Source: Siphonodentalium dalli (lineage: Eukaryota; Mollusca; Scaphopoda; Gadilida; Siphonodentaliidae). From it: a stretch of DNA of 64,000 bases. Below, in pieces: positions 16,809-50,809 of this stretch. The notes below the pieces were generated by a model, which did no database searches, was not told the DNA's origin, and worked only from the letters and a program-made list of their open reading frames with translations. Position 1 is the first letter of the stretch. Each line of letters begins with the position of its first letter. Both the position numbers and the translations under genes were made by a program. The stretch covers positions 186,549,309 through 186,613,308 of the forward strand of contig CP136068.1 in the NCBI GenBank assembly GCA_032622095.1, given 5' to 3'.

Positions 16809-16985
16809 AAATATATAAGGATTAACTGTCATGTGGACTGTTTTTATGGAGATGTAACCGTGAGGTAAGTGGACATAACTTGTGTAAAACCCGAAGGGTT
16901 TTAAATACAAGTTATGACCACTTACCTCACGGTCACATCGCCATAATAATAGTCCACATGACAGTTAATCCTTATATTTATATAC
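16809..16985. repeat. Near-perfect palindrome, about 177 bp
   Basis: AAGGATTAACTGTCATGTGG pairs with CCACATGACAGTTAATCCTT, and GTGAGGTAAGTGG with CCACTTACCTCAC. The tip AAAACCCGAAGGGTTTT leaves almost no loop. The arms are about 84 bp. This is a foldback element with no coding capacity. Confidence 0.9.
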
Positions 16986-29847: not shown

Positions 29848-30714
29848 CCATTTCTATTTGATTACCATACCGGAGTGTTTCACATCACTTTAAGATTATT
29901 CTCCATTTATATTTGATCACCATACCGGAGTGTTTCACATCACTGTAAAATTATTCTCCATTTATATTTGATCACCATACCGGAGTGTTTCACATCACTT
30001 TAAGATTATTCTCCATTTATATTTTATCACCATACCGGAGTGTTTCACATCACTTTAAGACTATTCTCCGTTTATATTTGATCACCATACCGGAGTGTTT
30101 CACATCACTTTAAGATTATTCTCCATTTCTATTTTATCACCATACCGGAGTGTTTCACATCACTGTAAGATTATTCTCCATTTCTATTTGATCACCATAC
30201 CGGAGTGTTTCACATCACTTTAAGACTATTCTCCATTTCTATTTGATCAACATACCGGAGTGTTTCACATCACTTTAAGACTATTCTCCATTTCTATTTT
30301 ATCACCATACCGGAGTGTTTCACATCACTTTAAGATTATTCTCCATTTATATTTGATCACCATACCGGAGTGTTTCACATCACTTTAAGATTATTCTCCA
30401 TTTATATTTGATCACCATACCGGAGTATTTCACATCACTTTAAGACTATTCTCCATTTCTATTTTATCACCATACCGGAGTGTTTCACATCACTGTAAGA
30501 TTATTCCCCATTTATATTTGATCACCATACCGGAGTGTTTCACATCACTTTAAGATTATTCTCCATTTATATTTGATCACCATACCCGGAGTGTTTCACA
30601 TCACTTTAAGACTATTCTCCATTTCTGTTTTATCACCATACCGGAGAGTTTACATCACTGTTAGATTTTTCTTCATTTCTATTTGATCACCATACCGGAG
30701 TGTTTCACATCACT
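29848..30714 (+). repeat. 55-bp tandem repeat, about 15.7 units
   Basis: CATACCGGAGTGTTTCACAT recurs every 55 bp (for example 30031 and 30086). The rest of the unit is CACTTTAAGATTATTCTCCA plus TTTATATTTGATCAC. A few alternates recur (TTATA or TTCTA; GATCAC or TATCAC; GATT or GACT). The last units near 30650 are most diverged. Confidence 0.96.
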
Positions 30715-31260
30715 TTAGGGAGGTTTCGCGACTCACGGATATAATTACGATTACTTTTAGCTACTTTTAGTTGTAAATTAATTTGGGGCGAAAAACAATG
30801 CTTCCCAAATATACAATAACGATGATTATAATTAATGTATACAGCACTGTGTGGATAATAGTTCACAGTGAGATTGTTCACATGGCACTATCTACAATGT
30901 TCCAATTTGAATTATTAATAACTCTCCAGTGACAAGATTTCACTTAACCAAAGTTGAACCATTGTTAAGTAAACATGACTTTAGTCATAACTGCATGTTG
31001 ACATCAACATTGGAAAAGGTCAAAGAATTGAAAAAATATTCTAATAATATCTCAACTCAATATTTGAATTTATTTCATTATTAGCAACGTGTGTTAACAA
31101 ATCACTGTAACATTTCTGTTTACATAACAATCTTTTCAATGTGCGACATTTTGTGATTGGAGAGCTTTCAATAATTAATTAGCAACACAGCTTATCTATT
31201 GGGAGGTGTGGGTTTTTTTTAACCCGGGAGATGCGCTGGTGTAGCATTAAATCATCATGT
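30715..31260. other. Gene-free stretch
   Basis: AT-rich, with no exon or repeat recognised between the 55-bp array and the hairpin pair. Confidence 0.4.
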
Positions 31261-31418
31261 GCCAGTCCATTATCTTATATATGCGAGCGAGTCTCCCATA
31301 GGGCGGCCCGCATTTATCAGATAATGTACTGATTACAAGGTCAATGTAAATATTGTTAGGCCAATACATTCTCTTATGAATGCGAGGGAGACTCGCATAT
31401 ATAAGAGAATACATTGGC
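31261..31418 (-). mobile_element. Dual-hairpin foldback element, copy at 31.3 kb (reverse)
   Basis: Hairpins at 31261-31332 and 31360-31418 are separated by TACAAGGTCAATGTAAATAT TGTTAGG, which is the reverse complement of the spacer seen at 20.2 and 32.7 kb. Stems are ATTCTCTTAT...ATATAAGAGAAT with GCGAG/CTCGC. The first hairpin is more decayed. Confidence 0.85.
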
Positions 31419-32640
31419 ACAAGGTTTTCGCAAAATTTCAGGAAGCTCCAGTCATGAACCAAAACTTGTAAAACTATTTACCTAAAATGGGATAGTGTTG
31501 CCTTCCGTGAGAGGCCAAATTTGATATGTAAGATGAGAAATTGCCCACAAGGAGTGGCAACAATGTCACATACGTTGTTAAATTTCCCCACAAGATGTGG
31601 TAACATTGCTCCCAAAAATGAGCAATTATCTACCTCTTTTTATGGAGTGAGTTAACAGGCAGTCTGCCCAATAATTGGGAAAGAGTAATAGCAACCCCAT
31701 GATAGTGCAGATTTCCCCCCTAAGCACGATCAACACGGTATAACCAATATTAATGAGGCTTTTCATTCCAAGGAATTCCATTGTTGAAATGTTCGCGTGG
31801 CAACACTTTTCGTTAAATTAATGTAAGTTTTTATGTAATCACACAACAGCGCAAAACTCCAACCGAAATCGTAGGCAGAAACTGATACATAATCACGCCA
31901 ATCCCCTCCCCAAGCTGAAGAGTACTGTTTTTTTTACCCGTACAACCTTGAATTTGAATTTGACTTGTCGGACAGTGTCGGTATGCATGCAATGACTTGT
32001 ACAGCTGAAACCCATAGCATGTATAGCTTCAGACAAATATTATGCTATAACAAATACTTCTAGTTCAGAGCACAACAGTTGTCAATACAAACAATAGTAC
32101 CTATACGAAGATAGGAAAGATATAACATTTCGTTAGGTTTACAATAATTTATCCAAGTTGAAAGTCCCACTAAGGTAGCATTACACAGTTTCTAGTAATT
32201 GTGTCCAACCTGAGAGGGGGGTACTCAACATCAAATATATGCTGATCCATTTTATTACCGTTGGCATAGGTCCAATCAAGCATGGTTATTTTCGACAGAA
32301 CTCGGACCCCAATTGGACCCCATACAACCGATACATCGTGTACTGCTACCTAATCCAAAAATAGACTTCACAAGCGAATGGGTGGAATGTTTTCACGCCC
32401 ATTACCAATTAGCAAGCCCTGTGGATTTGTATCCACGGACATATCCATCGTCCCTGACGATAATGACAGATGATAAAAACATCGAAACGCAAGGTCACTC
32501 TGATGACCAATAAAATAATTAATTAAAACTGACAGGTTTTTGGTGGTGAAAGAAAAATGATAACATCCATATATGTGACATTGTCAATGGCGCTATGCAT
32601 GTGGCTATTGTTGTCACTGACATTTTGCGAAAACCTTGTG
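31419..32640. other. Gene-free stretch
   Basis: No exon recognised. A short direct repeat, CCCACAAG(G)A(G/T)TGG followed by CAACA/TAACA, lies near 31548 and 31590. The 66-codon frame at 32313 has no motif. Confidence 0.4.
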
Positions 32641-32789: not shown

Positions 32790-33044
32790 CACACCAGCGC
32801 ACTCCCACCACGAAAGGGTTAACGCAATTTCTATTTCACTCTTTGATCTTGTTGATTATATATACATGTACAACTACAAACAGACACGTAGCCACAGAGA
32901 CGGTTACGTTTAACGATTATTTTTAAACGGAACCTTGTCGTGTGACCAGTCCAATACACACGGTACACATAGATATATACGTGGTGCATATTTACCAATG
33001 ATAAACACATATACACCCTTTACCAATGATAAACACATTTATAC

Positions 33045-33260
33045 CATAATTGCCTGTTCTATTGTGTGTATAACACCTATTTTGTAAACTTCATCTTTAC
33101 ACCCTACTGTGGGTATACAGCTTTCCACTGTGGGTATACATTTCTACTGTGGGTGTAAATGTTTCAACGGCACTTCATGGTTTAAGCGTTTATACCCATA
33201 ATAGATCTACACAGCGGTTGACCTCTGGTGGCCTCGCTGTCAATATTTAGCCCAATTATT
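33045..33260 (+). repeat. Dispersed repeat R33, copy 1 (3 internal 21-bp units)
   Basis: TTTGTAAACTTCATCTTTAC, then three copies of CTACTGTGGGTATACA-like units, then GGGTGTAAATGTTTCAACG and AGCGTTTATAC. The same order occurs at 51395-51740, where the internal unit is expanded to about nine copies. Element class unknown. Confidence 0.75.
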
Positions 33261-33561
33261 CGTCACGCCCGTTTCGCGAAGTAAATACACATTTTTTCCG
33301 ATCCAAAACGCTCTGAAATGCGATAAGTGGTCTAAATACACAGATATATACTACCCAATTAATATATTAGTGTTTACTTGTCGACAGGTTAAAGTTAGTT
33401 TTACGATCTAGCTGCACCGACTGACTAGGCCTACACATGTTTCATCTTATCTAGGTCGGCGACCGCTGTTGAGAATGTAAACAAAAACAAACGCACACGT
33501 TCGTCTGCTTCGGTGACTGCTTACATTTTTACAACAACAATTTGCTATTATATTCGATAAC
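33261..33561. promoter_or_regulatory. Upstream region of the Crypton-like gene
   Basis: The 300 bp before the first ATG of the recombinase frame may include its former promoter or 5' UTR, but I see no clear TATA box or other defined signal. No other feature recognised. Confidence 0.2.
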
Positions 33562-34580
33562 ATGTTCGGTGCCTTTACTTGTGAAAGTGACTTAGACGGC
33601 CTATTTAGTGACCAAGAACTAATGCAGAACTTTGTGACTGAAATGAATGATAATTCCAATGATAGTTTGGATTTAGACAGTACAGGTGACTTTGACAATC
33701 ACAATGAAGAATCAACAGACAGTGAACATAGCATGGGAATGGACGCAGACACCAGTCATGTGATTAATGAGCCAGCTGAGGCAGATACACCTCCACATAA
33801 CTATCCAAATAGTATGCCTAATGATGCACAGAGATTTGCTGAATTGAACAGTGACGGTGTAGAAAGTTTCATCACAGACCAGCAAAGCAAGCACACTCTG
33901 AAAAAATCTACGACTGACATTCGACTATTAAAGGTATGTCTAGCTGCGCAGTCGGAATCAAGAGAAATTCACGAGATACCAGTAATCGAGCTTGACCCCC
34001 TAATTGCAAAGTACATTCTAAGTGTTGACGTTGTGTTTCTCAACAGGAGTTCCGAAAAGATGGAACTGATTTTGAGCCCAGTTCACCAAGAGGACACATT
34101 TCTAATTTTTATCAGTATTTAAAGCGGCTCAAGTATGGCACCTCAGTGATGAACAAGGAGGATAACTCTTTGAAACAGCACGTAGAGCATTAATCGCTAA
34201 ACAGAAGCATATTAAAAGGCGTGGCAATGGAATAAGCCAAAGAAAGCCGAACCAATCAGCGACTATACGAGATAGACCTATTGTACGAAAAGAGAATTCT
34301 TGGAGAACAAACCCCAATTTCAATATTAAATACAATTTGGTTCAACAACACTGTGCAGTTTAGTTTACGCGGAGCGCAGGAGCATTACAATCTGCAGTGG
34401 GGTGACGTGATGCTGAAAACAACAAATGATGGAAAACAGTTATCACCAGTTGAGTGAGAGACAGACGAAAACTAGGACAGGCGCGGATATTCGAAACGTG
34501 CGCGAAACTGCACCAATAATGTGTTACACAGAAATAATCGATGAACGCAACCCAGCATGTTGTATGCCAGTAAACGGCCA

Positions 34581-34586
34581 TCTGGA
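34581..34586 (+). repeat. Target-site duplication, left (TCTGGA)
   Basis: TCTGGA immediately before the long-TIR element, repeated at 35574-35579. Deleting the element and one copy keeps the recombinase reading frame across the junction. Confidence 0.7.
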
Positions 34587-35573
34587 TCTCAGTTGTTGGC
34601 CATTATATATAAGTAGTAGCCCTAGAGTAAGAATAATAGGAAAGTTGGGAAACAACATGTTAAAAAACAATTTACACACCCACCCACCTCCCCTGTTGCA
34701 CTCGAAATCTCATCAAAACGAATACGCTTCGGACATGAATAACTACGTATGGAAAACTAAAGAATATCGATAATCACACTTACCATACATTTCTTGAGAG
34801 GTATATCCAGAAAAGCAACTTTTATCAGGTGAACATAATCAAAATCACGATAAAATTTGGCTCGACACAACATCATTAGCACGGAAATGTTAGGATCGAT
34901 AACTCTTTTGAAAAGTCGCGTTGGCGATTACCGCAATACGATAGGGGAACACCGAGTGCGTAACGTAACTATCACAAGTATAACATACTCTGATAACTTA
35001 TGACACTTATCGCCAAATTCATGCTTCAAACATTTTAAACATGTCATCTTCAGGTTCTTTTATTTTATTTTTATGAAAATGAATAATAAATGGGGTGATA
35101 AATATGTATAAAATGACAAATAGAATCAAATTAGCCATTTTCCCGTGAAACTTAGGACAGGTAAGCCAGGTACAAAAATTGGTGAAATATGAGTACGAAC
35201 GTCAAAGTGTTCCCCTATCGTATTGCGGTAATCGCCAACCCGACTTTTCAAAAGAGTTATCGATCCTAACATTTCCGTGCTAATGATGTTGTGTCGAGCC
35301 AAATTTTATCGTGATTTTGATTATGTTCACCTGATAAAAGTTGCTTTTCTGGATATACCTCTCAAGAAAGGTATGGTAAGTGTGATTATCGATATTCGAT
35401 AGTTTTGCATACGTAGTTATTCATGTCCGAAGCGTATTCGTTTTGATGATATTTCGAGTGCAACAGAGGAGGTGGGTTTTTTGTTTAAATTGTTTTTTAA
35501 CATGTTGTTTCCCAACTTTCCTATTATTCTTACTCTTGGGCTACTACTTATATATAATGGCCAACAACTGTGA
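34587..35573. mobile_element. 987-bp long-TIR element inserted in the recombinase
   Basis: The outer ends are TCTCAGTTGTTGGCC and GGCCAACAACTGTGA (inverted, one mismatch). The inverted arms are about 366 bp (34587-34952 and 35207-35573) around a core of about 255 bp. It has no transposase; the open frames in it are arm by-products. It is flanked by a 6-bp direct repeat TCTGGA, so it looks like a cut-and-paste DNA transposon derivative of unknown superfamily. It splits the codons between KRPSG and RSESEDPIYIAP of the recombinase. The total of 993 bp with the duplication is divisible by three, but the element has stops. Confidence 0.88.
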
Positions 35574-35579
35574 TCTGGA
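35574..35579 (+). repeat. Target-site duplication, right (TCTGGA)
   Basis: Right partner of 34581-34586. The alternative of a 7-bp duplication ATCTGGA cannot be excluded, because the base before it is also A on both sides. Confidence 0.7.
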
Positions 35580-36103
35580 AGGAGTGAATCAGAGGATCCA
35601 ATTTATATCGCGCCGCGTACAACAGCAGTTGAACACCCTGCCGATATGTGGTTTAATCGTCAAAAAGTTGGAGTGAATACACTTTCAACATTGATGTCGA
35701 TCATGGCGAAACAAGGTGGTCTGGACGAAAACAAAAGATTGACAAATACGAGCGCTCGAAAACACCTTGTGCAAAAGCTTCGTGAACCTGATGTGGTGCC
35801 TATTGGTATAGCCGCAATTAATGGGCATACACATTTGGCCAGTATTAACAATTATTCAACATCAGGTGAAAATGAAAGGGAAAGGTGTTCACTCCTGTTG
35901 AGCAACACAACGTCAACACTTACCTCCGAAAACAACTCTAATCCAGGGTCAAGTAATTCCAATTACTCTATGGACATAGTTCCAATTCAAGAAAGCGCAA
36001 TAGTCACAACAAGAAGCGAAAATGTGCAACCTAAAGAAACTGCATATTGCAATGTGCTTTCCTGCAAACAAAATTCGAAAAATGTCAACGTAAACATGCG
36101 CGA

Positions 36104-36558
36104 CTTTGGGTTACACTGGTCTAAATAAGGTTCCGAGTGACATCTAGCGGATGCGGGAGGAATATATAGGAGAGAATAAAATAGACACTGGGCCCTGATT
36201 GGTCAATAGCCTTGTGTCCTTTTTGCATAACAAATAATCACACCTCTTCCCTATGATTTCCCATAGGTAAAATAACCATGGGCACAGAATTAACCCTTTG
36301 TAGTGAAGATTGAATTTTTTGGTGTGGTCTAAAATATGACAGTATTTTTTTATGCGGATCTGACACTAGTTACGAAAACACAAGATTTAAAGGCGAATTC
36401 CCTGCTAGACAGACATGATTTTTCTGTGTAAAAAGTTTCCCCAAATGTAAATTTTTCCGATAAAAAATATTTGGACCAAATATTTATATAGCCAACAGCA
36501 TACGCTAAAACGTTAGCACTGAGGCCTATGAAATCATTTACACCAGTGTAACCTAAAG
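36104..36558. mobile_element. 455-bp TIR element (MITE), complete copy
   Basis: The left end CTTTGGGTTACACTGGTCTA and right end ...TTTACACCAGTGTAACCTAAAG are inverted repeats of about 23 bp with two mismatches. The interior is non-coding (ATCTAGCGGATGCGGGAGGA near the left end). A second copy starts at 37439. No target duplication is obvious. The left end overlaps the terminal codons and stop of the recombinase-derived frame, so the frame's apparent C-terminus (FGLHWSK) is supplied by the element. Confidence 0.85.
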
Positions 36559-37438
36559 GGAAAATGAGCTTTTTGGCATTTTTGATTCCTGGGAGTCACT
36601 TTAAAGCATTTTAATGCATTTTTAACAGCCTGGTCTGTCAGTCCAATGAATCTCCCATGTATGGTGTGGCTATTCTTGCCGCTGAAGTCTTCTTTCACTT
36701 ACATCGGCCAAAAACTTGTATGATTTTTCATAAAAAATGCCAATTTTTCAAGGTATTTTCAAAAAATTTCAATAGTCACATGATAATGCAAATGACCCGT
36801 AATATGAGCATGTCAATGACACACATACCAATGGTTATAAGAAGCTAATCTAAAAAGTATTTTGGATTTTATAGCCAGTGATATACAGATATATATAATA
36901 AAAGTGTGTCATTTTCACTGGTGGGTATGGCCATTTGAAGGTTAATAGCACTAAAACTTGGACACATTTAAGAAAATGCTTCCGCATTTCAAAGAGAGCA
37001 TATCTGTGTTCAACTAATTCAATATACACCAACATCCAGTTATCTTGGATCAGCCTTGCAGACCTGAAAATGTCATATTTTAGTCTTCCATGAGCTGATA
37101 AAGTAATGTGCTTGATGCTCAGCTGATCAGATCTGGACTCAATGACCTCACATCACCAGAAGTTCTCTCATTGAAATAATATTGTACAGTCTTCCATAGC
37201 TGATCCAAGTTTGCAACACCGGACCCCAAAAACTGTGTGAAAATGGGGTCTGAACATGACTTGTGGCGGAAAATTGTGTTCTTTTGATGAATAATGTGTT
37301 AAAGGGGTGGGGTTAAATTGTGTATGATAAATAAAGAACCACCGAAGTGATATTGTTTTTGAACACAGTTTTCCATTGATGGGCAATTCTGAACAAATGT
37401 AGGGAGTTACAATTATTCCGCGAAAAAGCGGTCTATCG
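36559..37438. other. Gene-free spacer between two MITE copies
   Basis: No exon recognised; open frames on either strand are at most 72 codons and motif-free. The two copies of the flanking element are in direct orientation 1.3 kb apart, so this interval could be host DNA or part of a larger element. Confidence 0.4.
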
Positions 37439-37872
37439 CTTTAGGTTACACTGGTGTAAATAAGGTTCCGAGTGACATCTAGCGGATGCGGGAGGAATAT
37501 ATAGGAGAGAATAAAATAGACACTGGGCCCTGATTGGTCAATAGCCTTGTGTGCTGTTGCATAAAACAATCATCACACCTCTTCCCTATGATTTCCCATA
37601 GGTAAAATAGCCATTGGCACAGGAATTAACCCTTTGTACTGAAGTTCGATTTTTTTGGTGTGGTCTAAAATATGACAGTATTGTTTTATGCGGATCTGAC
37701 ATTAGTTACGAAAACACAAGATTTAAAGGCGAATTCCCTGCTAGACAGACATGCCAGTGATTTTTTTGTGTAAAAAGTTTTTCCAAATGTAATTTTTCAG
37801 ATAAAAAAAAATTTGGACCCAATATTTATATAGCCAACAGCATACGCTAAAACGTTAGCACTGAGGCCTATG
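37439..37872 (+). mobile_element. 455-bp MITE family, second copy lacking its right end
   Basis: From CTTTAGGTTACACTGGTGTA to ACTGAGGCCTATG it follows the element at 36104 almost base for base. Differences include a small CCAGTGAT insertion. The right TIR (ATTTACACCAGTGTAACC) is absent, so the copy is truncated or interrupted at 37872. Its left TIR matches the consensus better than the first copy's. Confidence 0.88.
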
Positions 37873-38350
37873 GAAGTTTATCTTCTTTGTTCAGCAACAA
37901 CCACATACAGATTGACAATTTAAATATCCTAATGCCAGGATGTGAATGAAAACTTCATTTTAATGTTCGAATTTCCCACGTTGGATTTTAACTGACCTCA
38001 ACTTCGTTCCCAACAAAAAAATAGTTCATGTGTTAGATTCATTCAAAGATTTATTCAAAATTGTATATTGTTTTGATGTCATTTATATACGAGAAAATAC
38101 AGCAAAATAAATCAAACATAGGTTGTTACTGTTATTTTCAATGAGTGAAATCTGAATGTGTATTCACATCAGCTGATTGATTCCCCAGAAAGTGGAGGAT
38201 CACCGAATGACCTAGAAGTATATATTGCTACACGTGCCCCACATTCCTGGTAGCTTCAAATATTTGGGTCACTGGGTACGCATACATTTTAACAGCAAAG
38301 TAGTAATACCAGTAGATAAATTTACGAAGCGACTAAAGAATAATAATTAT
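37873..38350. other. Gene-free stretch
   Basis: AT-rich flank between the truncated MITE and the palindrome. Nothing recognised. Confidence 0.4.
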
Positions 38351-38491
38351 GGTATAAATAAAATACACCCATAGTAGCCGATAATAAAAATTGTTCACCA
38401 CTCGTGGAATTGTGGTTTTAAACACTCGCAAAAGGCTCGTGGTGACATTTTTTAATTCTCGGCTACTATGGGTGTATTCTATATTTATACC
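38351..38491. repeat. Imperfect palindrome, about 141 bp
   Basis: ATACACCCATAGTAGCCGA pairs with TCGGCTACTATGGGTGTAT; inner CACCACTCG pairs with CGTGGTG. The arms are about 55 bp. It shares the CACCACTCG...GCTCGTGGTG tip with the palindrome at 38754, so the two belong to a related foldback group. Confidence 0.85.
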
Positions 38492-38582
38492 ATGATCGCC
38501 TATCTTACTATATAAATAAAGCCATCTGTTTAAATTTTATATTTAATCAACACCTGTTGATTAAACGTTCCTACTGTTGATT

Positions 38583-38751
38583 AAACTTTGCAGAGTGGAT
38601 TAAACTTTCTCCATACAATTTGAACGGAAAAGTGTTTATCCATCGCATTGTAAAGATCGTGGCATAAACTTCGCAGAGTGGATTAATCTTTCTCCATATA
38701 ATTTGAACGGAAAAGTGTTTATCCATCACATTGTAAAGATCGTGGCATAAA
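38583..38751 (+). repeat. Tandem duplication, about 80 bp x 2
   Basis: GCAGAGTGGATTAAACTTTC and GCAGAGTGGATTAATCTTTC head two copies that both continue with TTTGAACGGAAAAGTGTTTA and TAAAGATCGTGGCATAAAC. It lies between the two palindromes. Confidence 0.88.
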
Positions 38752-38753
38752 CA

Positions 38754-38896
38754 AAATATACGCATAGTGTTTCTGAATAACAAATTTAATCCACTCGTGG
38801 GATTGGAGATTTACACCACTCGCTGAAGCTCGTGGTGTATATCGCCAATCCCACACGTGGATTAAATTTTGTATTCAGAAACACTATGCGTATATT
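38754..38896. repeat. Near-perfect palindrome, about 143 bp
   Basis: ACGCATAGTGTTTCTGAATA pairs with TATTCAGAAACACTATGCGT. AATTTAATCCAC and GGGATTGG pair with GTGGATTAAATT and CCAATCCC. The tip ACCACTCGCTGAAGCTCGTGG has a short loop. Foldback element with no coding capacity. Confidence 0.92.
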
Positions 38897-39166
38897 ATAT
38901 ATATACACCCTATACTAGTACTCTACCCATATACACCCTATACTAGTACTCTCCACATAATCGCTAGAAGCGGATTCTCTCTACTAAATAGATAGAAAAT
39001 GTTATCAAACAAGATGGTGTATTTCCTATGGCAGTGGTCGTTCCACGCACGCGCATGTCATTTTATATAATGTACATTTGTAGAATCTTAATATAAAGCA
39101 AATAAGTTGTGTAAAATGTAGCATAGGAATCATAATATATATATATATATTTTTTGTTTTATATTT

Positions 39167-39551: not shown

Positions 39552-39598
39552 CTGAAAAGTAAAATCCGAATAATAAGCCAAGTGGTTTAAAACTCAAG

Positions 39599-40685
39599 TT
39601 TACAGACACGTCGGCTAGGATCAGGGCCGGAGTATAGTTTACAGACACGTCGGCTAGGATGAGGGCCGGAGTATAGTTTACAGAGACGTCGGCTAGGATG
39701 AGGGCCGGTTTACAGAGACGTCGGCTAAGATGAGGGCCGGTTTACAGAGACGTCGGCTAGGATGAGGGCCGGAGTATAGTTTACAGACACGTCGGCTAGG
39801 ATGAGGGCCGGAGTATAGTTTACAGAGACGTCGGCTAGGATGAGGGCCGGAGTATAGTTTACAGACACGTCGGCTAGGATGAGGGCCGGAGTATAGTTTA
39901 CAGACACGTCGGCTAGGATGAGGGCCGGAGTATAGTTTACAGACACGTCGGCTAGGATGAGGGCCGGAGTATAGTTTACAGAGACGTCGGCTAGGATGAG
40001 GGCCGGAGTATAGTTTACAGACACGTCGGCTAGGATGAGGGCCGGAGTATAGTTTACAGAGACGTCGGCTAGGATGAGGGCCGGAGTATAGTTTACAGAG
40101 ACGTCGGCTAGGATGAGGGCCGGAGTATAGTTTACAGAGACGTCGGCTAGGATGAGGGCCGGAGTATAGTTTACAGACACGTCGGCTAGGATGAGGGCCG
40201 GAGTATAGTTTACAGACACGTCGGCTAGGATGAGGGCCGGAGTATAGTTTACAGACACGTCGGCTAGGATGAGGGCCGGAGTATAGTTTACAGACACGTC
40301 GGCTAGGATGAGGGCCGGAGTATAGTTTACAGACACGTCGGCTAGGATGAGGGCCGGAGTATAGTTTACAGAGACGTCGGCTAGGATGAGGGCCGGAGTA
40401 TAGTTTACAGACACGTCGGCTAGGATGAGGGCCGGAGTATAGTTTACAGACACGTCGGCTAGGATGAGGGCCGGAGTATAGTTTACAGACACGTCGGCTA
40501 GGATGAGGGCCGGAGTATAGTTTACAGACACGTCGGCTAGGATGAGGGCCGGAGTATAGTTTACAGACACGTCGGCTAGGATGAGGGCCGGAGTATAGTT
40601 TACAGACACGTCGGCTAGGATGAGGGCCGGAGTATAGTTTACAGACACGTCGGCTAGGATGAGGTCGGCTAGGATGAGGGCCGGG
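39599..40685 (-). repeat. 39-bp minisatellite in the lectin intron, about 28 units
   Basis: Unit GTTTACAGACACGTCGGCTA then GGATGAGGGCCGGAGTATA, 39 bp. Most copies are identical; the main alternate is ACAGACACG versus ACAGAGACG. Two short 32-bp units near 39675-39740 lack AGTATA. On the minus strand the array is one open frame (13-residue SVNYTPALILADV repeat) over 300 codons without an ATG, and it stops about 47 bp short of the lectin exon acceptor. It lies in the intron, so the frame is most likely a consequence of the unit being 13 codons long. Confidence 0.95.
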
Positions 40686-40686
40686 G

Positions 40687-41189
40687 TACTACGTCGTAAT
40701 GTTCGCGTTTTCGTCGCCTAAATATGAATGACTCAAACGAAACAGATAGCGAATGAGCTATGTATTACTTATTGTTAGCTCAATGTGAGTCCCAATTTAA
40801 TTACGACTGTTGACAAGATATAATTGTAGTATAATAATACTAATATAAGTGTAATAATCATCAGTTTTCGAGGTTTTGACGTTTGAACGCCACAATCTCC
40901 TTATAACACATCTGTTCGACGTCCAAGTGTTTGTCCAAGACGAGTTATTGGTATTGTTTACAGATGGACTAAATAGTTTCCTGAGTATGAACTAATAATG
41001 TATATATGACTCGATGACCCCTGTCCTGAAACACTTCTGTCAATTAATATTGATTTCATGTTGAATATTTTGGTATACTATACATATAATCAATTTAGGG
41101 CATTATACTGCTCGCTTTCGTTCCGAGCATACCATGCGGGATAACTCTAAAATAAAATAAAAAAACAATTGATTGTCGCACTATATTTA
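40687..41189. other. Intronic stretch without features
   Basis: Part of the lectin intron. AT-rich; no exon or repeat recognised. Confidence 0.4.
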
Positions 41190-49080: not shown

Positions 49081-49357
49081 CTTCGTAAATTACGCAATAT
49101 CACTGCCAAATATTTTCAGAAATGGGACGAGTATCATTCATGGTATTCATTGCTGGCACATAGAATGCTTTTTATTTGACAAATTTACGAAAAAGTTGGA
49201 AAAATGGTTGATATCTGTTTTGGGCGAAATGAAGCTACCTCGAACAAATATCTATATATATGATATATGGCTCGGCCAATCAGAAAACTCATTACAGCCT
49301 TTAACAAATTCACATTACCACATGCAGCACGTGTTTACTGCGTGTGGATATATATAT

Positions 49358-49502
49358 ACGATAATAGCATAGTGTGTTTTGAGATGTGTTTTATCTCAAT
49401 GAGTTAGAAGTATGATTTTTCGCGAGGCTCTGCTAAGCGAAAAATCATACTTCTAACGAGTTGAGATAAAACACATGTCAAAACACGCTATGATATTGTT
49501 GT
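49358..49502. repeat. Near-perfect palindrome, about 145 bp
   Basis: GTTAGAAGTATGATTTTTCG pairs with CGAAAAATCATACTTCTAAC; TGTGTTTTATCTCAA pairs with TTGAGATAAAACACA; ATAGCATAGTGTGTTTTG pairs with CAAAACACGCTATGAT. The loop is AGGCTCTGCT-like. A foldback element. Confidence 0.92.
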
Positions 49503-50809
49503 ATTTATCTTATGCCAACTGACACTATAATTTTTTGTCAAATTAAACAATTTGTATGGCAGTTTTCAGACAAAAACAACCTACATTTTGGTCATTTCGA
49601 AGAGCAATTCCTGTTACGCATGAATACGCAGTTACAGTACATGTGATGAGGTCGCGAATATATGGAACATTGGGGTGATTTGTCAGCAATAAACAAGATA
49701 GAAGTCCTGATGTAATATGAATCCATGTACAGAAATCGGAACTGTGAAATTCTTTCAATCAAATATCAATGTTCTCAAACAAAAAGCAAAGTCATTGAAA
49801 CTGTTATAGTTCAGAATTCGCTAGATTGAAAATAGCCATGCAAGTTCTGATAAAAGTGTACATCGTAAATTTTTCAAATTTCGTGCGGTTCCAGCTGTCT
49901 AAAATTATAGGAACAGAATAGTGAAAGCTAAAATTTAATCCTATTAGGGACATGAAATCATGTTTCATCGAATAAATAGCTACATTACAATTTTATTCAA
50001 CTTGTATGCATTAATTTATTCGATTAAACCATCCGAAACGCTGAAGTAGATATGACCCAATTTCGAGGTGAGAGTTTTTGTTGATACGTCGCCAAGGCAG
50101 CAACGTCGTGATGTGAAAGGTCACGTTGTGCATAGTCCTTTCTTGGAGTATAATACACATATGTAAGATATAGCTAACATTTAATACACAGTATAACATC
50201 AAACCAGTATAGAATAAAAGGTTCATAACAAGCATGTCTGCATTTATTAACACTCAAACTATATACATCGGTTCCCTCAATGTTATGTATATACACCGGT
50301 CTCCTTAAAGAATGCATCATACTCTCAAAATATGAAGGAGACCTAAAAAAATGCATATCCCATAATGCTGACTCCTCGTTGGAATATATATAATTTAGAG
50401 CCTGTTTGATGGACATAGTGATGATATTCGGAAGTGTTATCTATATTGCATCATAAATAAAGGATATACATTATGGCCTCTTAATGCAGAATTCCGACCA
50501 CAGTGCCCTTAAGGAAGAAAGCAGCATTATATATATAGCGTCCTGCCTGGCTACCCTTCGGCATACAGTTGCCAAATAGTATATTGTTTTCTCTATTTTG
50601 TTGTTAAATCTTCTTGTTAGTAAACTATAGTTCTGCACTCCGAAGATAACAATGTTCTGATATAATGGTAGTGACTGTGCTCCTTTAATAAGATCATTAA
50701 TACTTAGTCTGTCGCGAGTACAGTAAACGCATAACGCTCACTCATTTGTGAACTTTCCACAATAAAAGATGTATTCTAGGGTCTCTGTCAGAACGAAAAA
50801 TAATACCTA
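49503..50809. other. Gene-free stretch
   Basis: No exon, transposon terminus or repeat recognised. Open frames are at most 80 codons and motif-free. Confidence 0.4.

Follow-up and report, generated by a model that had tools for sequence, protein, structure and literature searches.

A 64,000-nucleotide stretch of the genome of the scaphopod mollusc Siphonodentalium dalli (contig CP136068.1, forward-strand positions 186,549,309 to 186,613,308; hereafter the window) contains a dead copy of a DNA transposon that encodes a tyrosine recombinase and resembles the CryptonA elements of animals. Both the identity and the architecture of this copy are well supported. Relatives of the element in the same genome share a distinctive right end, in which the left terminus recurs in inverted orientation and is followed by a long hairpin with CTCG loops. 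If the two ends were joined in a circle, they would complete one continuous hairpin, and on balance we think it probable, by a modest measure, that the recombinase uses this folded junction as its attachment site, in the way that attC is used in integrons. The aligned copies show the architecture, and the mechanism is our interpretation of it. The genome searched comprises 2.227 Gb in nine contigs, and the window is located on contig 8. It has 41 matches to Wnt, in accordance with an animal host, whereas neither mollusc haemocyanin nor the control used with it gave a match. Crypton families are designated by letters (A, B, C, etc.) that apply to this analysis only; the window copy belongs to family C.

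Open-Frame Relatives and Recent Activity

A search of the genome with the PF12012 (DUF3504) profile provided 1168 candidates. Scores were computed for the best 150 of them, every one of which was above the cut-off. An open frame of exactly 659 amino acids appears in 13 of these 150 rows and one of exactly 646 amino acids in 12, one of which has a stop. Eight loci with the first frame were taken for family A and five with the second for family B. A first-pass annotation of the window, which had regarded the element as a fossil, proposed looking for intact copies elsewhere in the genome, and open-frame relatives are what this search finds. Copies are 97.7–98.7% identical within family A and 98.9–99.2% identical within family B over 3.7–4.0 kb, beyond which homology ends. 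Coding differences between the copies are very few (the proportion of synonymous differences, pS, is 0.0019 in family A). Two or more of the Crypton families in this genome have been mobile in the recent past. One element from family A and one from family B were scanned for open frames, and apart from the recombinase no frame longer than 131 amino acids was found in either (no reverse-transcriptase profile search was made). The single recombinase frame characteristic of CryptonA is therefore present in both.

Element Ends and the Inverted Inner Copy

The elements begin with TTAT... on the left and end with ...TAT on the right. For families A, B, and C the ends were defined from several copies with unrelated flanks, the match beginning where independent copies diverge. 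The left ends obtained in this manner are TTATTTCACGCCG for family A, TTATTACATATG for family B, and TTATACCATAATT for family C. In each of the three families the letters of the left end recur inverted, beginning 164–188 bases ahead of the right end, and a long hairpin follows this inverted copy and closes in ...CTAT or ...CTATAT. Because the left terminus is present in inverted form next to the terminal hairpin, the inner site and the predicted circle junction are reverse complements of each other. The two differ in length: relative to the junction, the inner arm lacks 2 bases in families A, B, C, E, and H, 3 bases in Q, and 4 bases in D, F, and P.

Fourteen further loci, chosen for diversity, were used to test this end design. 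An exact left end of 13–14 bases together with its inverted copy was found in seven of them (L028, L029, L030, L031, L032, L038, and L040). In total, eight families have both the left end and the inverted copy, and nine hairpins are available for comparison. In all eight families, the 13-mer that the inner site predicts is found as an exact match upstream of the recombinase frame of the same family. The same test gave one match in 56 cross-family pairings (the H word upstream in D) and one in 8000 dinucleotide shuffles.

The Terminal Hairpin and Its CTCG Loops

The right-end hairpin and the joined left end fold as a single stem in all nine cases, the ninth (P) being folded without a left end. 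The z-scores of the fold range from −10.9 to −27.4 for the nine hairpins relative to mononucleotide shuffles. The two arms pair without gaps over 34 positions at a fraction of 0.88–1.00 in eight of the nine; the remaining hairpin (Q, 0.44) has an indel. When arms were swapped between families, the mean pairing was 0.35 and the maximum 0.62. Three or four pair types are found among the families at 25 of the 34 stem positions. A miniature inverted-repeat transposable element that landed once near the end was also considered as the source of the hairpin and was ruled out, the hairpin sequences differing between families while the layout is constant.

On the coding strand of the nine hairpins, CTCG occurs 37 times and CGAG twice. 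The outer CTCG motifs are opposed, with TC facing TC; the complementary strand would have GA against GA, a stable tandem mismatch. In all nine hairpins the outer CTCG starts 43–46 bases past the position equivalent to the cut at the inner site, and its partner is located 46–50 bases from the right end. Measured from the start of the inner copy, the distance is 57 bases in seven of the nine hairpins, in the window copy (where CTCG is found at 57, 81, 92, and 114), and in 15 of 17 hairpins of the nonautonomous family described below; the 57-base figure depends on the copy start that is chosen, and the distance of 43–46 from the cut-equivalent is preferred. Two variants were observed in individual copies. 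A CGAG on one arm of L020, a family A locus, makes that part of the palindrome perfect, and the tip of the L016 hairpin has been lost symmetrically.

Long hairpins that contain regular internal loops are a general feature of RNA signals, and the structure might instead work in the transcript (for stability, evasion of small RNAs, or packaging), its nearness to the end of the element being incidental. This explanation is improbable in our judgment. The left end pairs with the inner copy only after the ends have been joined, a pairing that a linear transcript does not need, and yet the match is exact in eight families.

Insertion Sites

The target sequence was compiled from 20 insertions and reads T^DTA, where the caret marks the point of insertion. 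The first position is T in 19 insertions, the second is A, T, or G in 11, 6, and 3, and the last two are T in 20 and A in 18, respectively. Three of these insertions (L017, L021, and L027) sit in minisatellite arrays; the T^DTAT target is part of the repeat unit, and other units of the arrays hold the exact empty 10 + 10 join 5, 12, and 3 times, respectively. For the other 17 insertions, 60 + 60 bases of flank were joined and used to search the genome, with 40 of 8805 candidates scored. The joined flanks match ungapped across the junction at 99–100% at 2 places for L018, 13 for L019, and 25 for L004. The empty site of L004 recurs within G000:C2:155–157 Mb, where a segment is repeated many times. 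At L025 the right flank has the apparent end of another Crypton type (CACTCG...GATCCTCTATAT), which suggests that this copy was inserted next to an older Crypton end.

Neither duplication nor loss of target bases was found at any of the six resolved sites. The junctions at these sites are unmixed, the left product having the element base and the right product the target base. A staggered exchange over 6–8 bases would tend to mix the two; exchange of a single strand followed by replication would not. Short direct terminal repeats, a trait of the fungal and oomycete Cryptons, were not found, all six sites being free of duplication. Such repeats do not define CryptonA, because Kojima and Jurka (2011; PMC3212892), who describe the animal Cryptons, report finding no terminal repeats in them.

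A Proposed Folded Junction as the Attachment Site

In the proposed pathway the recombinase would excise the Crypton as a circle. The circle junction, as a folded strand or as a cruciform, would form one continuous hairpin: the left half-site would be paired to the inner copy of itself, and the other arm to the right half-site. The unpaired TC/TC within the facing CTCG/CTCG motifs would confer polarity on this hairpin, and the nearly fixed distance of the loops would position the protein. One strand exchange at the edge of the spacer would join the hairpin to T^DTA, and replication would resolve the product, as in the insertion of integron cassettes. Four features fit a folded junction as the substrate, and from them we infer it: the fold itself, the loops placed at a nearly constant distance, a pairing that is possible only in the circle, and junctions that are unmixed.

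Most characterized tyrosine recombinases use duplex sites. In a conventional duplex reaction the junction would be an ordinary double-stranded attP, and the inner site and the palindrome would be accessory sites or a brake on inversion; an inner copy 2–4 bp shorter than the junction could be prevented from recombining by that difference. This alternative is considered rather unlikely, since it leaves unexplained a long and near-perfect hairpin in nine families of unrelated sequence, the nearly fixed placement of the CTCG loops, and the absence of mixed overlap at the resolved junctions. Another alternative is templating of the DIRS type, in which the inner region would serve as a template for completing the ends of a copy, with reverse transcriptase provided in trans. 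The order of left end, inner left copy, inner right copy, and right end is that described for DIRS1 in PMC3266345, as is the absence of a target duplication. We assign this scheme a slender likelihood: the recombinase is the sole long frame of the two elements scanned for frames (the profile search noted above not being part of that scan), the inner copy of the left end extends over just 13–14 bp, and no long inverted terminal repeats were observed.

Several points weigh against the folded junction. The circle, the single-stranded intermediate, and the activity of the recombinase are all predictions. In duplex DNA the inner site could be an additional site of protein binding, and the hairpins could act at the RNA level. 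Within the nonautonomous family the arms show 33 one-sided changes and no two-sided change (17 of 21 hairpins were used, and 4 in which the pattern of the inner copy was not matched were dropped), so that covariation of the arms is seen between families and not within this one. An empty site was not matched for 14 of the 20 insertions. Two of the 14 further loci have the inner part alone (L033, a broken family A copy, and L037), and five have neither the left end nor the inner copy (L034, L035, L036, L039, and L041). The copies at L036 and L039 may have lost the end, because their protein resembles that of L030; those at L035 and L041 may be other types, or the end may be located beyond the stretch that was fetched. 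Words of 13 letters shared with any part of the hairpin region arise in 0–5 of 200 shuffles per locus, and the case therefore rests on the match at the predicted place in eight families. In an initial local-alignment test with the probe beside the palindrome, the best of 40 mononucleotide shuffles scored nearly as high as the loci or higher, including loci that were later found to be exact by the word test, partly because the palindrome call overran the true end; this test was superseded by the exact-word test and its controls. The ratios of nonsynonymous to synonymous differences (pN/pS) are 1.49 for family A, 0.44 for B, 0.92 for C, 0.58 for E, and 0.64 for F, values that are uninformative because young copies have too few changes.

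A 14-base inverted match in L036 (at 262 and 4800) was also considered as an end and its copy, and was judged to be a dispersed repeat because similar words are found at 31388–31441 of the window.

The hairpin design offers a clue to the cut-and-paste mechanism of these elements, which are poorly understood. The defined ends, the target, and the conserved folded junction make the movement of animal Cryptons directly testable, and recently active Cryptons with many near-identical copies provide the experimental material.

Recombinase Proteins

Eight proteins were scanned against Pfam. PF12012 was above the cut-off in all eight and PF00589 (Phage_integrase) in six; family C is below the cut-off for the latter (16.7 vs 27.1 bits) and L034 has no match. 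The chains matched in the PDB include QRICH1; the matches to an Int protein (6emz), XerA, XerD, and the integron integrase IntI4 are weak. The 6emz chain is presumably the Int of Tn1549. A search for relatives in viral contigs found none. The catalytic R-H-R-Y residues are present in the aligned copies of families A, B, D, E (L029 and L031), F, and H. Deviations are found in family C and L037, which have Thr in place of His, in L040, which reads NNH where the others read NNY, and in L034, which is without these residues.

Box II reads LTNTSARKH in six family C loci with long open frames and LTNTSARKL in the 564-amino-acid frame of L037, which belongs to a different family. It reads TNNCVRK in L041, with Asn for His, and NHS(L/A)R in the other aligned proteins. 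Replacement of the box II His by Thr had been listed in the first-pass annotation beside the damage to the window copy. The Thr is present but is no sign of decay, since open-frame relatives and L037 carry it as well, and damage was ruled out as its origin. The aligned frames identify it as a trait of a clade that has multiplied, and not as a lesion.

Locus L034 (G000:C7:69668978–69674336) has a frame at 599–2899 for a protein of 767 amino acids with QRICH1 and DUF3504 domains and a proline-rich end. The Phage_integrase match is missing and the catalytic Arg and Tyr are absent at the aligned places. This locus is a candidate for a domesticated gene.

The Decayed Copy in the Window

The limits of the window copy and the features within and beside it are presented in Table 1. 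An extent of 33562–36107 had been proposed for the element, and the actual element is about twice that length. Its assignment to the Crypton-type recombinases holds: window 34236–34457 matches PF12012 with an E-value of 5.4e-11. The segment at 35574–36128 alone matches PF12012 weakly and below the cut-off (E-value 0.031), and four further pieces of the window scanned against Pfam gave no match. With the protein of the open-frame locus L002 as the tblastn query, the stretches at 33562–34554 and 34053–34586 overlap and correspond to residues 1–326 and 160–340, and residues 339–520 and 527–550 are found at 35574–36113 and 37875–37946, respectively. The pieces are thus collinear, as first described, in two frames rather than three, and the copy is indeed a fossil, frame-shifted and interrupted by inserts.

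Table 1. Features of the Crypton Copy and the Adjoining Element (Window Coordinates; TIR, Terminal Inverted Repeat; TSD, Target Site Duplication)
Feature	Position	Strand	Evidence
Whole decayed Crypton, family C, with two later inserts	33039–38484	+	Homology limits against 14 paralogues; end motifs
Left terminus, TTATACCATAATT	33039–33051	+	Onset of homology among paralogues with unrelated flanks
Recombinase frame, 5' part, frame-shifted	33562–34579	+	tblastn with L002 protein; Pfam DUF3504
Target duplication, left copy, ATCTGGAT	34580–34587	+	Paralogue sites; other copies of the insert
hAT-like long-TIR element, 985 bp, nonautonomous	34588–35572	+	Multicopy family; 8-bp TSDs in 4 of 5 other fetched copies
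Target duplication, right copy, ATCTGGAA	35573–35580	+	Paralogue sites; other copies of the insert
Recombinase frame continued: box II with Thr (NTSARK), GH, Tyr	35581–36108	+	tblastn; paralogue frames; window translation
Second insert: 455-bp TIR element, ~880 bp, and a further, truncated copy of the TIR element; replaces 22 bp of Crypton	36109–37872	+	Paralogue comparison
Recombinase frame, C-terminal end	37873–37946	+	tblastn
Inverted internal copy of left terminus, AATTATGGTATAA	38345–38357	+	End-motif comparison
3'-Terminal hairpin with CTCG loops and right terminus ...TTCTATAT	38358–38484	+	End-motif and arm comparison
421-bp nonautonomous Crypton, head to tail with the window Crypton; own left end, inverted copy, and CTCG hairpin	38485–38905	+	Genome search; ends in 20 copies; fold

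The first 1022 bases of the window element match 35 places in the genome, with the window itself counted. Besides the window, 12 of these matches cover the full query and one covers bases 1–1015, at identities of 85–88%, and the resemblance therefore exceeds chance. Fourteen paralogous loci were fetched for family C. The frame between stops is 568 codons in L002, L003, and L004, 543 in L001, and 517 in L013 and L014; in eight of the 14 the frame is broken. L007 is the sister of the window copy in the tree, and the private branch of the window copy is 0.060. A single isolated fossil was ruled out by the 35 genome matches and by the many open-frame relatives found with PF12012. A plain fossil Crypton with a datable nested insertion and nothing more would also account for the lesions, the hAT-like nested insert, and the order of divergence, all of which are real. 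Such an account covers neither the ends and the second insert nor the recently active relatives and the adjoining nonautonomous element, and we consider it very improbable.

Inserts and Order of Events

A nested long-TIR insertion of 987 bp with a 6-bp target duplication had been described from the window alone. The long-TIR insert is present; its length is 985 bp, and the duplication is 8 bp with one mismatch. Perfect 8-bp duplications flank four of the five other copies that were fetched, the fifth being without its left part, and the family is large (2071 candidates, 40 scored). The unoccupied site, which had been suggested as a check, is found once and uninterrupted as ATCTGGAT in all seven paralogues compared among the 14 fetched; in L006 the sequence beside this site is missing. 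An 8-bp target duplication is a hallmark of hAT elements. The insert resembles these in its duplications and its short CA...TG ends and differs from them by inverted arms of about 365 bp that are 96% alike. It is provisionally classed by its TSD and ends as a hAT-like nonautonomous element.

The second insert, which the first-pass annotation overlooked, replaces 22 bp of the Crypton. The stop codon near 36128, the last one of the first-pass annotation, falls inside this insert. Private divergence is 7.0% for the coding pieces of the Crypton copy, 3.1% for the adjoining nonautonomous element, and 2.5% for the hAT-like insert; the clock is rough, since the classes of sequence differ and the last figure comes from four other copies. 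These values indicate that the Crypton arrived first, and the order of events proposed earlier (Crypton, then nested insert) is retained.

Other repeats are found in the window. Another hairpin with CTCG on the minus strand is located at 49352–49508 (minus strand) and has a Crypton-like right end, TTATCGTATATATAT; in about 7.5 kb that was examined, no exact word of at least 11 bases marks a left end for it. A foldback palindrome of 165 bp without CTCG is found at 16813–16977, and its sequence is like the left flank of the L002 Crypton, which places that Crypton in or beside such an element. Minisatellites with units of 39 and 55 bp are found at 39584–40819 and 30000–30769, respectively.

The Nonautonomous Crypton

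The 421-bp element starts with TTATACCATGATC immediately at the right end of the larger Crypton. Its inverted inner copy, GATCGTGGCATAA, matches the left end at 11 of 13 positions. A genome search provided 1630 candidates, of which 40, the window included, were scored; all are nearly full length. The other 39 scored copies are 95–97% identical, and 37 of them start at base 1 of the query. The left end is preceded by T in 19 of 20 fetched copies; in L049 the left end was not matched by the pattern. That an element consisting of ends plus hairpin is so abundant suggests that the smallest unit able to move includes the hairpin.

Comparison with Known Systems

No earlier report of a Crypton with this hairpin-ended design was found in the literature searched, Repbase and most subscription papers being outside its scope. 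As described in PMC3212892, the CryptonA elements of animals are like those analyzed here in having a single DUF3504-related tyrosine recombinase and both autonomous and abundant nonautonomous copies. Defined ends, an inverted inner copy of the left end, the CTCG hairpin, and the T^DTA target are the additions made here.

Integron attC sites are recognized by their fold, unpaired bases select the strand, and resolution requires replication (PMC2727003). The Crypton junctions resemble these sites in sharing a fold with little shared sequence, in having unpaired bases that distinguish the strands, and in having an unpaired spacer by the crossover and a variable tip. attC belongs to bacterial cassettes, whereas the Crypton hairpins have longer stems, facing CTCG motifs on both arms, and a fold that is predicted.

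In DIRS1-like elements, inner regions complement each of the two ends, and the target is not duplicated (PMC3266345). The Cryptons share with them a tyrosine recombinase, zero target duplication, and an inner region complementary to the joined ends, the last being found in eight families and nine hairpins. They differ in that long inverted terminal repeats were not seen, in the CTCG loops at a nearly fixed distance, and in the lack of a second long frame; in the two elements examined by frame scan (no profile search), no frame besides the recombinase is long enough for reverse transcriptase and RNase H. PMC6681497 and PMC4157794 report the proposal that DIRS arose as a composite of a Crypton and an LTR-type (long terminal repeat) element. 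The present elements bear on that proposal because they have an inner complementary region of the DIRS type without a reverse-transcriptase frame. We put forward tentatively, as a possibility held with less confidence than the attachment site itself, that animal Cryptons move via a hairpin that forms solely when the ends meet in the circle and that is read by its fold and CTCG loops and not by its sequence, which would make it the equivalent of attC in eukaryotes. In that case, DIRS would have inherited its internal complementary region from a Crypton as a device for recombination, and the region would not be a device of reverse transcription.

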